A stretch of 64,000 bases of DNA from Saccharopolyspora sp. SCSIO 74807 (GTDB lineage Bacteria; Actinomycetota; Actinomycetes; Mycobacteriales; Pseudonocardiaceae), in assembly GCF_037023755.1 (NCBI RefSeq), contig NZ_CP146100.1, positions 2,048,501 through 2,112,500 on the forward strand. The letters are read 5' to 3'. Below are positions 9,305 through 51,923 of this stretch, one piece after another. Numbering within the stretch: position 1 is the first letter of the stretch; each line of letters starts with the position of its first letter. Both the position numbers and the translations under genes were made by a program. The notes below the pieces were generated by a model, which did no database searches, was not told the origin of the DNA, and saw nothing but the letters and a program-made list of their open reading frames with translations.

Positions 9305-9646
9305 GCACGGCTGTCCTGGCATGTGTCGTTCGGCACCGTTCAAGATCAACGACTGATCCGCCGGTACCCGGCGCCACCGCCTCCGCCGCTCGCGGGGGCG
9401 TTCTCAGTCATCGCGCTGACCAGCCGTTTTGGTTCCCGGCGGCGTTTCGGACATCATGGAGCGGGGTGCTCGTGCGGCCGTCGTAGGCAGCGCACGCGGA
9501 CTTTGTGCCCGTCTTCACAAGTGGCTACGGTGGTCGACGGAGCCGTGCCAGCGGAGTCGGCGGTTCGCACCCCGTGTTCGCCGGTGTGCGCTCCCGCGGA
9601 GCGGGCGCGGCGGGCAGCATCACCAAGGCAGGTCAAGGGAGCGCCA
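9305..9646. promoter_or_regulatory. rex-hemACD promoter region
   Basis: 342 bp without a gene. It contains a Rex-type operator at 9503-9520. A -35 like TTGTGC (9503-9508), a 17-bp spacer and a -10 TACGGT (9526-9531) overlap that operator. If used, the transcript leader to the rex GTG is about 110 nt. Nothing else recognisable is seen in the first 190 bp. Confidence 0.6.
9503..9520. promoter_or_regulatory. Rex operator (ROP)
   Basis: TTGTGCCCGTCTTCACAA matches the actinobacterial Rex consensus TTGTGAAnnnnTTCACAA at 12 of 14 specified positions, with a perfect right half. It overlaps the proposed -35 and spacer, which suits repression. Autoregulation of rex-hemACD is known in Streptomyces coelicolor. 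Confidence 0.82.
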
Positions 9647-10510
9647 GTGACGGCCCACGGAGAGGGCGTGCGGGACGAAGCCGGGCAGTCGGCGGAAGTC
9701 CCGTCCGGGTCCGGACGGTCACCCGAGTCGATCGACGTACCCGCCGCGCGGGAGCGCGCGAGGGCCATCCCGGAGGCGGCCGTCGCGCGGCTGGCCGTGT
9801 ACCTGCGCGTGCTCTCCAGCCTGGACGAGCAGGGCACCGGAACGGTTTCCAGCGAGGAACTGGCCGCGTTCGCCGGGGTGAACTCGGCGAAGCTGCGCAA
9901 GGACCTGTCCTACATCGGCTCCTACGGAACCCGCGGCGTCGGCTACGAGGTCGGCGTGCTGATCGGGCAGATCGAGCGGACGCTGGGGCTGACCCGCAAG
10001 CACCGCGTCGCCGTCGTGGGCATCGGTAACCTGGGGCACGCGCTCGCGAACTACGGCGGCTTCCTCAACCGCGGCTTCCCGGTCGCCGCGCTGTTCGACC
10101 TGGATCCGGATCTGCTGGACGTGCCGGTCGGCGGCATCCCGGTCAACGCGGTCGAGGACATCGTCGATGTCTGCCGCGAGCGGGAGGTCACCATCGGCGT
10201 GATCGCCACCCCGGCCGAAGGCGCGCAGGAGGTGTGCGATCGGTTGGTCGAGGGCGGCGTGGTGTGCATCCTGAACTTCGCACCGGTCGTCCTGCAGGTC
10301 CCCGAGCACGTCGAGGTGCGCAAGGTCGACCTGGCGGTGGAGATGCAGATCCTTTCGTTCCACGTGGCGCGGCGCAATCAGGAGGCGGCGGCCGTCGGTA
10401 CCGGCATCGCGGGCGACGGGGGTCCGCCGGGCCGCGGCGCGGACGGCGAAGGGAATTCGGAACCCGCGCAGCAGCGCGAGGATGCGGACGGGATGGTGGT
10501 TCGGCCGTGA
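9647..10510 (+). CDS. rex: Redox-sensing transcriptional repressor Rex
   Basis: 287 residues from GTG 9647, with AAGGGAG 5 nt upstream. After a ~35-residue polar N-terminal tail comes the winged-helix DNA-binding domain ([16 protein letters not shown], then [17 protein letters not shown]). The Rossmann domain begins at [13 protein letters not shown] (~residue 122) and includes LFDLDPD, the Asp-bearing end of the second strand for NAD selectivity. The C-terminal domain-swapped helix [13 protein letters not shown] is followed by a polar tail of ~50 residues that is longer than usual. It binds DNA when NADH/NAD is low and is released by NADH. The stop overlaps the hemA GTG. Confidence 0.96.
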
Positions 10511-48682: not shown

Positions 48683-48974
48683 GATCGCGCACTGCCGAGC
48701 AGGCGACAAGGGCGACACCTCGACGCTGTCGCTGTTCCCGCGCGACGACCGCGACTACGACCGGTTGGTCCGGCAGATCACCGCCGAGCGGGTGCGCGCG
48801 CACCTGGCCGATCACGTGCGCGGCGAGGTCGTCCGCTACGAGTTGCCGCTGCTGTGCGGCTTGCAGTTCGTTTGCCACCAGGCTCTGGACGGCGGCGTGA
48901 CCACCTCGCTGGCGCTGGACACCCACGGCAAGAGTCTCAGCTACCGACTGCTGGCCATGCCGCTGCCGGATTGA
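48669..48974 (+). CDS. AtuA-associated small C-terminal domain protein
   Basis: 101 residues starting MLLHEIAHCRAGDKGDTSTLSLF, with LADHVRGEVVRYELPLLCGLQFVCHQALDGGVTTSLALDTHGKSLS. This matches the small ferredoxin-fold-like domain found at the C-terminus of, or next to, AtuA-like cores. Here it is a separate gene overlapping the core gene by 14 bp, so a split version of a two-domain protein. No transcription terminator was recognised after it. Confidence 0.85.
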   Translation: MLLHEIAHCRAGDKGDTSTLSLFPRDDRDYDRLVRQITAERVRAHLADHVRGEVVRYELPLLCGLQFVCHQALDGGVTTSLALDTHGKSLSYRLLAMPLPD

Positions 48975-49331
48975 GACCGGCCCGCCGAACCGCCGCAGCA
49001 GGCGGCGGCATCCGGGTGAGCCGCCGCACGGCATCCCCAGATCACGAGCCCTACCTGCGATGACAGTCACCCGAGCGGCCTACCGAACGGGGTCGATCGA
49101 GTCCGTTGACCGGCCTAGACTCGGGGAGATAGTGAACTCGTTCACAAGCGGGTTCTCCGGCGTCGTGGTGGGGCGGCGCGGGCCGGGCGGCCGCCCGGCG
49201 AACGGGACTCCGGTCGAACCGGGCACCGGGCTCCGAGCAGCGCGGGCCCGCGGGACCGGGGCCGGGAGCCGGTCACCGCCCGGGCCGGGCCCCGCCGCGG
49301 CGCGCACCGAGCACGGCGATCAAGGAGTGTC
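48975..49331. promoter_or_regulatory. menJ control region with long GC-rich leader
   Basis: 357 bp without a gene. Proposed promoter TTGACC (49106-49111), 16-bp spacer, GATAGT (49128-49133). A Rex-type operator at 49130-49147 covers the -10 and likely start point. The transcript would carry a ~190-nt leader, very GC rich (stretches of GGGCCGGG and CCCGGGCC near 49255-49295), able to form strong stems before the menJ ribosome site. Confidence 0.6.
49130..49147. promoter_or_regulatory. Candidate Rex operator upstream of menJ
   Basis: TAGTGAACTCGTTCACAA matches TTGTGAAnnnnTTCACAA at 13 of 14 specified bases and has the correct 4-bp centre. Overlaps the proposed -10, so bound Rex would repress. 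Its inner arms GTGAAC/GTTCAC are perfectly symmetric. Confidence 0.75.
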
Positions 49332-50630
49332 ATGACCAGCGCCCCCAGTCGACGCGGCCCGAACGACGACGCCGACGTCATCGTCGTCGGCGCCGGACCG
49401 GCCGGAGCGACCGCGGCGACGTACCTGGCCCGGTCGGGCCTGGACGTCCTGCTGCTGGAGAAGAGCGTCTTCCCCCGCGAGAAGGTCTGCGGCGACGGCA
49501 TCACGCCGCGCGGCGTCAAGCAGCTCATCGACCTCGGGGTGGACACCCGCGAGGAGGCGGGCTGGCTGCACAACAGGGGACTTCGGGTCGTCGGCGGCGG
49601 TGTCACGCTCGAACTGGACTGGCCGGAGCTGGCGGAATTCCCGCCCTACGGTGTGGTCCGCCCGCGCAACGACTTCGACGACCTGCTCGCCCGCGGCGCC
49701 CAGCAAGCGGGTGCCCGCATGGTGCAGCAGACCAGCGTGACCGGGGCCGTGCGCAACGAGCGCACCGGCCGCGTCGAAGGCGTCACCGCCAAGTCCGGCC
49801 CCGAGAAGGTGCCGGTGACCTACCGCGCGCCGATCGTGGTCGGTTGCGACGGCGTCTCCGCCCGGCTCGCGCTGTCGATGGGCATCGAGAAGAGCGACCA
49901 GCGCCCGATGGGCGTGGCGGTGCGCCGCTACTACGACAGCCCGCGCACCAAGGACGACTTCATGGAGTCGCACCTGGAGCTGTGGGACCGCTCCGCGCCG
50001 GACGATCCGAAGCTGCTGCCCGGCTACGGCTGGATCTTCGGGATGGGCGACGGGACGGTGAACGTGGGGCTGGGCATCCTGTCCACCTCCAGCGCCTACG
50101 GCAAGACCGACTACCGCCAGCTGCTCAAGTCGTGGCTGGACGGCACCCCGGAGGAATGGGGTTTCCGGGACGAGAACGCCAACGGCCGGGTCGGCGGCGC
50201 GGCGCTGCCGATGGGCTTCAACCGCAAGCCGCACTACCGCGACGGGCTGCTGCTGGTCGGTGACGCGGGCGGGATGGTCAACCCGTTCAACGGCGAAGGA
50301 ATCGCCTACGCCATGGAGTCGGCACGGCTGGCCGCCGAATGCGTGGCGCAGGCGTTCGCCCGTCCGGCGGGGCCGTCGCGGGAGCACGCGCTGCACCGGT
50401 ACCCGGCCGCGGTTTCCGAAGCGATGGGCGGCTACTTCCGGATGGGCAACATCTTCAGCAAGTTGATAGGCAATCCGACCGTGATGCGGATGGCGACCAA
50501 GCACGGTCTGCCGCGCCGCACGTTGATGCGTTTCGTGTTGAAACTGCTGGCAAATCTCTACGACGGACGCGACGGCGACGCGATGGACCGTGTGATCAGC
50601 GCCACTACTCGGCTCACCCCTAGCGCCTGA
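49332..50630 (+). CDS. menJ: Menaquinone reductase (geranylgeranyl reductase family)
   Basis: 432 residues from ATG 49332 behind GGAG. FAD-dependent oxidoreductase: VIVVGAGPAGATAATYLARSGLDVLLLEK at the N-terminus, CGDGITPRGVKQL, GADGVS-like VVGCDGVSARLAL, and the FAD-binding C-motif LLVGDAGGMVNPFNGEGIAYAMES. The closest functional match is mycobacterial MenJ (Rv0561c), which saturates one isoprene unit of menaquinone. It is directly upstream of the NDH-1 operon, which uses that quinone. A chlorophyll- or archaeal-lipid-type reductase is excluded by context only. Confidence 0.9.
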   Translation: MTSAPSRRGPNDDADVIVVGAGPAGATAATYLARSGLDVLLLEKSVFPREKVCGDGITPRGVKQLIDLGVDTREEAGWLHNRGLRVVGGGVTLELDWPELAEFPPYGVVRPRNDFDDLLARGAQQAGARMVQQTSVTGAVRNERTGRVEGVTAKSGPEKVPVTYRAPIVVGCDGVSARLALSMGIEKSDQRPMGVAVRRYYDSPRTKDDFMESHLELWDRSAPDDPKLLPGYGWIFGMGDGTVNVGLGILSTSSAYGKTDYRQLLKSWLDGTPEEWGFRDENANGRVGGAALPMGFNRKPHYRDGLLLVGDAGGMVNPFNGEGIAYAMESARLAAECVAQAFARPAGPSREHALHRYPAAVSEAMGGYFRMGNIFSKLIGNPTVMRMATKHGLPRRTLMRFVLKLLANLYDGRDGDAMDRVISATTRLTPSA

Positions 50631-50663
50631 GAGTCCGCGTCTGGTCAGATGGTCGCCAGACGG

Positions 50664-50677
50664 TGTGAGAACTCACA
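50664..50677. promoter_or_regulatory. Palindrome upstream of nuoA
   Basis: TGTGAGAACTCACA: perfect 6-bp arms around a 2-bp centre. It resembles a Rex half-site pair but the spacing is 2 bp too short for the Rex consensus. Candidate operator of the nuo operon for an unknown regulator. Confidence 0.5.
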
Positions 50678-50680
50678 AAG

Positions 50681-50699
50681 TTAGGTTCGCCTCACTGCA
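50681..50699. promoter_or_regulatory. Candidate DtxR/IdeR-type iron box upstream of nuoA
   Basis: TTAGGTTCGCCTCACTGCA: a perfect left half TTAGGT and a central GCCTCAC as in many actinobacterial iron boxes (TTAGGTTAGCCTCACCTAA type), about 15 of 19 by that form and fewer by the symmetric consensus. The right end is weak. Iron control would make sense for a complex with many Fe-S clusters. Confidence 0.4.
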
Positions 50700-50788
50700 A
50701 AACGGAAACGGGCGAGCGCATAGAGTGCGCAACCGACAACCGCAGACGTGACGTTCGTCGCGGCGGGGGCCGCAAGGAGGGCAGTGCC

Positions 50789-51178
50789 GTGGGTGGTTCG
50801 AGTGCTTCGGGTGTTCTCGACCCGTACATCCCGCTGGTGCTGATGTTCGCGCTGGCGCTGGGATTCGCCGTGTTCTCGGTCGCCATCGCCCCGATCGTCG
50901 GCCCCCGCCGCTACAACAAGGCCAAGCTCGACGCCTACGAGTGCGGGATCGAACCGTCGCCGCAGCCGGTGATGGGCGGCGGCCGGATGCCGGTCGCCTA
51001 CTACCTCACGGCGATGCTGTTCATCCTGTTCGACATCGAGATGGTCTTCCTCTACCCGTTCGCGGTCTCCGCGGACTCCCTCGGCCTGTTCGGCGTGGTC
51101 GAGGTCGTGCTGTTCATCGCCACCGTCGGCTTCGCCTACGCCTACGTGTGGCGCCGAGGGGGACTCGACTGGAATTAG
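50789..51178 (+). CDS. nuoA: NADH-quinone oxidoreductase subunit A
   Basis: 129 residues, three TM helices, from GTG 50789 behind AAGGAGGG. Membrane-arm subunit near the quinone site. Typical loop [19 protein letters not shown] with the conserved Cys of NuoA, and [16 protein letters not shown]. First gene of the nuo operon. Confidence 0.96.
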
Positions 51179-51242: not shown

Positions 51243-51923
51243 ATGGGCCTAGAGGAGCAGTTGCCCAACGGCATCCTGTTGGCCAACGTCGAAAAGCTCG
51301 TCAACTGGACCCGGAAGACGTCGATGTGGCCGGCGACCTTCGGGTTGGCCTGCTGCGCGATCGAGATGATGACGATCGGCGGGTCCCGCTACGACGTCGC
51401 GCGGTTCGGCATGGAGCGCTTCTCGGCCACCCCGCGGCAGGCCGATCTGATGATCGTCGCGGGCCGGGTGACCAACAAGATGGCCCCGGTGCTGCGGCAG
51501 ATCTACGACCAGATGCCGGAGCCGCGCTGGGTGCTGGCGATGGGCGTGTGCGCCTCCACCGGCGGCATGTTCAACAACTACGCGGTCGTGCAGGGCGTGG
51601 ACCACGTGGTGCCGGTGGACATGTACCTGCCGGGCTGCCCGCCGCGTCCGGAGATGCTGCTCGACGCGATCTTGAAGCTGCACGCCAAGGTCATGGACGA
51701 GCCGATCAACGCCAAGCGCGCCGCGATCCGCGCGGACAGCGGCGAGCGCACCGAACTCGTCGCCTCCTCCGAGCGCTACGCGCCGAAGAACCGCTCCCAG
51801 CGCAAGCGGGCCGAGCGCCAGCAGCGGGCGCAGCAGAAGGAAATGGGTTCCGAGGGGGCGCTGGCCGTCGAGACCGGCGCGCAGCGCGAACAAGTCGAGC
51901 GGCAGCTCGGGGCGGGCAGGTGA
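51243..51923 (+). CDS. nuoB: NADH-quinone oxidoreductase subunit B
   Basis: 226 residues. Carries Fe-S cluster N2, the last before quinone. Ligands: CCAIE (adjacent Cys pair), the Cys in [11 protein letters not shown] and LPGCPPRPE. The C-terminal ~50 residues ([20 protein letters not shown] region) are a basic then acidic extension beyond the core, common in actinobacteria. Confidence 0.96.

Follow-up and report, generated by a model that had tools for sequence, protein, structure and literature searches.

The site at 49130-49147 of the window (the whole stretch of DNA analyzed, 64 kb) is very probably, judging from its letters and its distribution among genomes, a genuine and widely conserved Rex operator. 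We consider it likely that this predicted operator sits on the promoter of a menJ-nuoA-N unit, the repression of which would be relieved by NADH. In the genome comparisons described here, most of the conservation of the site is better explained by complex I than by menJ. Across many genera, the arrangement would connect the NADH sensor Rex with a gene for reduction of the quinone tail. The features of the region are as follows.

49093..49098, + strand: -35-like block TCGATC, 17 nt before TAGACT; kept in the genus as judged by eye, uncounted
49116..49121, + strand: TAGACT, conserved -10 hexamer of the predicted promoter before menJ, 8 nt upstream of the operator
49130..49147, + strand: candidate Rex operator TAGTGAACTCGTTCACAA, 1 mismatch to TTGTGAANNNNTTCACAA
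49332..50630, + strand: menJ-like gene of the geranylgeranyl reductase family, 432 aa, above the TIGR02032 cut-off
50789..51178, + strand: nuoA, complex I chain 3, first nuo gene (PF00507)
51243..51923, + strand: nuoB, complex I 20 kDa subunit (PF01058)

The candidate operator, its promoter and the gene downstream

The reference motif, TTGTGAANNNNTTCACAA, is that of Streptomyces avermitilis Rex (PMC5355995) and was scored at its 14 fixed positions. TAGTGAACTCGTTCACAA agrees with it at 13 of these, the sole mismatch being at position 2, and the letters, coordinates and 13/14 match given in the original prediction proved exact on recheck. Two sites with two mismatches or fewer were found in the window, one before menJ and one before rex. 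Shuffled sequence gave a mean expectation of 0.01 such sites in 64 kb, and none of 100 shuffles reached two. Scanning the 6.69-Mb genome returned three sites at one mismatch and two at two mismatches (counts made without a separate control for the 0-2 mismatch class). When up to three mismatches were allowed, 20 sites were obtained, compared with 16 for a backwards control, and the three-mismatch class is therefore uninformative. The CRP-type pattern TGTGA-N6-TCACA (up to two mismatches) was found 9 times in the window against 12.2 expected, which is not above chance; the case for the operator thus rests on its Rex form and its conservation. As regards membership of the class of Rex operators, the site matches the motif, lies on or next to a promoter, occurs in a genome that encodes Rex and is conserved before orthologues of the downstream gene.

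Inspection of the sequence upstream of the operator revealed a conserved -10 element. Of the 90 operator-bearing genomes, 85 (27/29 genera) have TANACT within the 26 nt that precede the operator; none of 244 control windows has it. The distance from its end to the operator is 3-16 nt overall and 12-14 nt in 66 of the 85 genomes. From the position of TAGACT, transcription would start at about 49128-49130. The promoter named originally, TTGACC-16-GATAGT, is present as letters and was picked by a consensus scan, but neither hexamer is kept in sister species, which keep TAGACT (49116-49121) instead, and it was rejected as the menJ promoter. In this species, the 184-nt leader between the operator and menJ (49148-49331) is G+C-rich; the operator of S. 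rosea begins just 56 nt ahead of the menJ start.

The product of the downstream gene (P0001) scored 251.4 bits against TIGR02032 (cut-off, 158.8), which places it in the geranylgeranyl reductase family. Its score against the NCBI MenJ equivalog NF045655 was 249 bits, far below the cut-off of 700. The original label "MenJ-type" is thus sound at the level of the family and goes too far at the level of the NCBI MenJ model. The next protein of this genome to match P0001 is 31% identical to it over 348 residues (E value of 2.3e-22). By similarity, P0001 is the closest candidate in the genome for a menaquinone side-chain reductase and is plausibly that enzyme. MenJ of M. tuberculosis, the menaquinone side-chain reductase described in PMC5936774 and PMC9686282, belongs to the same geranylgeranyl reductase superfamily; P0001 differs in its low score (249 of 700 bits) on the NCBI MenJ model. 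A geranylgeranyl reductase gene, ggr, also lies by the nuo locus of Actinomyces oris, adjoining ubiE, and the CS-2 coaggregation mutants described for that species include one with an insertion in a geranylgeranyl reductase gene as well as insertions in nuoA, nuoJ and nuoG (PMC5478893).

Conservation of the operator before menJ

Within Saccharopolyspora, the 18-mer before menJ is identical in 15 of 16 loci (L003-L017 and L044, with L004 and L009 on the same contig), and S. subtropica has one spacer-base difference. Two wider samples were used. The first consisted of 80 loci, the best 80 of a longer list. A site with two mismatches or fewer was present in the 300 nt before menJ in 44 of these best 80 loci and absent in 36. 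The 36 loci without one include all 21 of Streptomyces among the best 80, together with those of Kitasatospora, Streptacidiphilus and Wenjunlia.

The second sample, which partly overlaps the first, consisted of 150 genomes of the order. A MenJ match was obtained in 134 of these, and six of the genomes without one lie outside family f7. With 17 weak f7 matches and the window's own genome set apart and the best match taken per genome, 116 genomes remained; these, the window's own genome and four more of the genus make up the 121 genomes counted here. Ninety of the 121 carry a site with two mismatches or fewer within 300 nt before menJ, and 50 rounds of shuffling gave none. When the half-sites GTGA and TCAC alone were sought, they occurred at a spacing of 6 in 83 of the 121 genomes and at spacings of 2-5 and 7-11 in 0 or 1 genome each. 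Of the bases that this search left free, the inner A was present in 83 and the inner T in 82 of 85 GTGA-N6-TCAC sites, the outer T in 82 and the outer A in 84. These counts span 29 genera and include many close relatives, so that they do not represent independent events. The search ahead of menJ orthologues in related genomes, put forward with the original prediction, found the same site far beyond the genus. It is hardly credible that a chance palindrome explains 49130-49147: a 64-kb window is a large search space, but this is all that speaks for chance, and it is outweighed by the expectation of 0.01 and by the 90 genomes that carry the site against none in shuffles.

The family f7 differs from the rest of the sample. 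Of 155 genomes, 133 have a Rex that exceeds the Pfam cut-off, comprising all 128 outside f7 and 5 of the 27 within it. The menJ-like matches of f7 have 36-41% identity to P0001, and we take them to be MenJ. No site within three mismatches was found upstream of the 17 weak f7 matches, which are distant homologues and a poor control. The 28 regions upstream of nuoA in the 27 f7 genomes (L299-L326) contain no Rex site with two mismatches or fewer, including those of the five Rex-bearing genomes, and the rule that a genome with rex has the operator at nuo fails in these five.

The same f7 regions bear on whether the menJ site belongs instead to a CRP/GlxR-type regulator, the consensus of which, TGTGA-N6-TCACA with no fixed inner pair, overlaps that of Rex. 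A one-mismatch match to this consensus is present in 23 of the 28 f7 nuoA upstream regions (800 nt), 15 times as TGTGnnnnAGCTCACA, in counts uncontrolled for chance. However, the TGTGnnnnAGCTCACA sites of f7 are without the inner A/T pair of the Rex motif, the inner A/T and outer T/A of Rex are nearly fixed in the 85 sites before menJ, and the CRP-type pattern is no commoner in the window than chance. We regard assignment of the site at 49130-49147 to such a regulator as improbable. For the menJ sites as a group, the CRP reading was rejected on the basis of the spacing control and of the scan with unconstrained inner bases, and these sites do not qualify as members of the CRP/GlxR class. Complex I in f7 seems, from these upstream regions, to be under a regulator other than Rex, and the regulator of complex I may have changed in this family.

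Position of the operator relative to menJ and nuo

The gene order on one strand is menJ, a gap of about 160 nt, and then nuoA and nuoB of the nuoA-N cluster. In order to determine which gene the operator follows, its location was read in 115 of the 116 genomes, all of them rex bearing (G135 was left out). In 81 genomes (25 genera), an operator was found only ahead of menJ, and in 27 (9 genera) only in the menJ-nuoA gap; 4 genomes have it at both places and 3 at neither (G006 and G030, in which no nuoA was found within about 3 kb, and G034). The median menJ-nuoA gap is 102 nt with a menJ-only operator versus 472 nt with a gap-only operator. Upstream of the first operator in the gap, the -10 element is TANACT in 19 of 31 genomes and TAGGGT-like in 10, the remaining 2 apparently having been read on the wrong strand. 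Among the best 80 loci, all seven Streptomyces-group loci with nuoA in the stretch have a site with two mismatches or fewer before nuoA and none before menJ. The pre-nuoA site of S. lucensis is letter identical to the 18-mer footprinted at nuoA1 of S. avermitilis, as reported in PMC5355995.

These comparisons revealed that one cassette, a -10 element plus a Rex operator, is found either before nuo or before menJ-nuo. Its position varies between menJ and nuoA, but it is retained somewhere in the complex I region. Most simply, selection would hold complex I under Rex and menJ would be included where it heads the unit. Since the operator mostly tracks the complex I genes, menJ is probably switched together with them. 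The original prediction held that the operator controls menJ. What stands of this is a predicted Rex operator on the promoter before menJ, conserved and in a genome with rex; menJ as the specific target is not supported, because the site moves with the complex I promoter and 27 of the 31 genomes with an operator in the gap have none before menJ.

That last count, together with the 21 of 21 Streptomyces loci and the three close genera without an operator before menJ among the best 80, also argues against a second reading, in which the operator serves menJ in its own right, quinone side-chain reduction is an output of Rex, and nuo transcription in this genus comes mainly from the promoter in the gap. 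In favor of that reading, the menJ operator is kept in G112, G123, G077 and G097 although nuo has its own, and the same double arrangement occurs among the best 80 loci in Umezawaea, three Saccharothrix and Actinokineospora enzanensis. Further, A. iranica, Herbihabitans and two Streptoalloteichus have a menJ site with 1-2 mismatches, with TANACT, and no nuoA within 3 kb downstream; in Herbihabitans, menJ is followed by a long open reading frame on the opposite strand. The several genera in which menJ has an operator of its own, whether nuo carries one as well or is located at another place, are, we assume, all Pseudonocardiaceae. Within Saccharopolyspora, a promoter-like region is conserved in the gap and contains no good Rex site. 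On the other hand, of the 22 loci among the best 80 without nuoA in the stretch after menJ (L028, with only 386 nt downstream, was left out of this count), 4 have the operator on menJ and 18 have none. The 18 loci that lack both a nearby nuoA and the menJ site are 16 of Streptomyces, one of Kitasatospora and YIM PH 21723. The retained menJ sites are also a minority, several of them with two mismatches, and may be relics. We find this second reading doubtful, and the evidence on Rex control of menJ itself, possible as the sites make it, is mixed. We prefer the reading in which complex I is controlled jointly with menJ, the gene that heads the unit.

Tandem Rex operators are present in 20 of the 31 operator-bearing gaps, and all 20 pairs are 32 nt apart. 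In the named tandem examples, the distance is 32 nt in 7 of 9, with 20 nt in Kutzneria and 31 nt in A. enzanensis. The gaps with tandem operators include those of L221, L226, L228, L232, L031 and L026. A separation of about three helical turns suggests cooperative binding of Rex.

Alignment of the menJ-nuoA gap in Saccharopolyspora and Actinopolyspora revealed several conserved blocks: GTCTGRTCAGAT, which differs at a single base in two of the rows; a degenerate Rex-like site; TTAGGTTCRCCTCA, in which S. endophytica has G for T at one position; and a -10 element resembling TAGAGT. The features in the window are as follows.

50661..50678, + strand: degenerate Rex-like site CGGTGTGAGAACTCACAA, the window copy being beyond 4 mismatches
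50681..50694, + strand: conserved dyad TTAGGTTCGCCTCA (consensus TTAGG-N4-CCTAA), second nuoA promoter-like region
50721..50726, + strand: TAGAGT, -10-like element of the second promoter-like region before nuoA, from the gap alignment

The sites aligned to 50661-50678 have three mismatches in S. rosea and two Actinopolyspora. Of 61 loci, 37 have the dyad TTAGG-N4-CCTAA, with two mismatches or fewer, upstream of nuoA; when its spacing was varied from 0 to 10, the other spacings gave 0-5 loci, except for 18 at a spacing of 8. The dyad is often followed at about 22-26 nt by a TAGAGT or TAGGGT -10 element, and we take it to resemble part of the DtxR/IdeR iron box. The region as a whole looks like a second nuoA promoter, as predicted from these elements, and probably gives nuo a further, differently controlled supply in this genus. 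Conserved promoter-like elements in a gap of about 160 nt imply that nuo need not depend on the menJ promoter, and nuo here may be only partly under it. The stretch 48950-50900 contained no terminator-like site, a result of little weight given that shuffled sequence yields 0.7.

Proposed regulation and other Rex sites

In the mechanism that we propose, RNA polymerase would use the -10 hexamer TAGACT (49116-49121), with transcription beginning at about 49128-49130. Initiation would be blocked by a Rex dimer bound at the operator, where it would cover the start site and the first transcribed bases. Oxygen shortage would raise the NADH/NAD+ ratio, NADH would release Rex, and menJ would be made, with read-through into complex I. 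The steps that we infer are Rex binding in this species, repression, transcription of menJ and nuo as one unit, and any effect on menaquinone. That menaquinone saturation is linked to Rex is a reasonable guess. Tentatively, and with less confidence than we place in the operator, we suggest that in many actinobacteria NADH buildup could raise complex I and the menJ-like reductase together, shifting the saturation of the quinone that complex I reduces. Menaquinone saturation is a taxonomic marker, and its dependence on redox state becomes testable.

Rex control of nuo was already published for S. avermitilis, with a motif backed by footprints and gel shifts (PMC5355995). The site resembles that of S. 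avermitilis nuoA1-N1 in its motif, in the complex I operon and in the position of the repressor at a promoter. It differs in that the nuoA1 footprint (-42 to -16) is at the nuoA1 promoter, whereas the site here precedes menJ, ahead of nuoA (PMC5355995). At cydA1B1CD of S. avermitilis, the footprint (-3 to +25) lies over and after the start site, a placement that would be the same here, but the target is cytochrome bd and there is an accompanying half site (PMC5355995). The terms geranylgeranyl and menaquinone do not occur in the main text of that paper. The S. spinosa rex mutant paper (PMC4172946) refers to cytAB and unspecified NADH dehydrogenases and does not contain the word nuo. No Rex-menJ link was found in the literature accessible to us on Rex with menaquinone, geranylgeranyl reductase, nuo or Saccharopolyspora, and databases such as RegPrecise may hold one.

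The window also contains rex and a second operator.

9503..9520, + strand: Rex operator TTGTGCCCGTCTTCACAA before rex, 2 mismatches
9647..10510, + strand: rex (PF06971 and PF02629; start codon chosen by eye), followed by two genes that we take, from the list of open reading frames, to be hemA and hemC

The Rex protein, which has both the DNA-binding and the NAD(H)-binding domain, matches solved Rex proteins with E values down to 1.7e-47 and has an RKDLSY-containing stretch in common with the best of them. The five sites in the genome with two mismatches or fewer are those before menJ and rex, a tandem pair before a WhiB-like gene and one before a serA-like gene. The two sites of the pair are 29 nt apart (L206 1501-1547; C1:604530-604576) and precede a WhiB-like gene of 85 residues, named by eye (L206 1606-1863). 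In S. avermitilis, Rex acts directly on both rex and wblE (PMC5355995), and the tandem sites before the WhiB-like gene are placed as for wblE in that species. The one-mismatch Rex-like site TTGTGAACGAGTTCTCAA (L205 1501-1518; C1:394295-394312) lies just before a -10-like TTAAACT, and the gene behind it, also named by eye, reads like serA, an NAD-dependent dehydrogenase.
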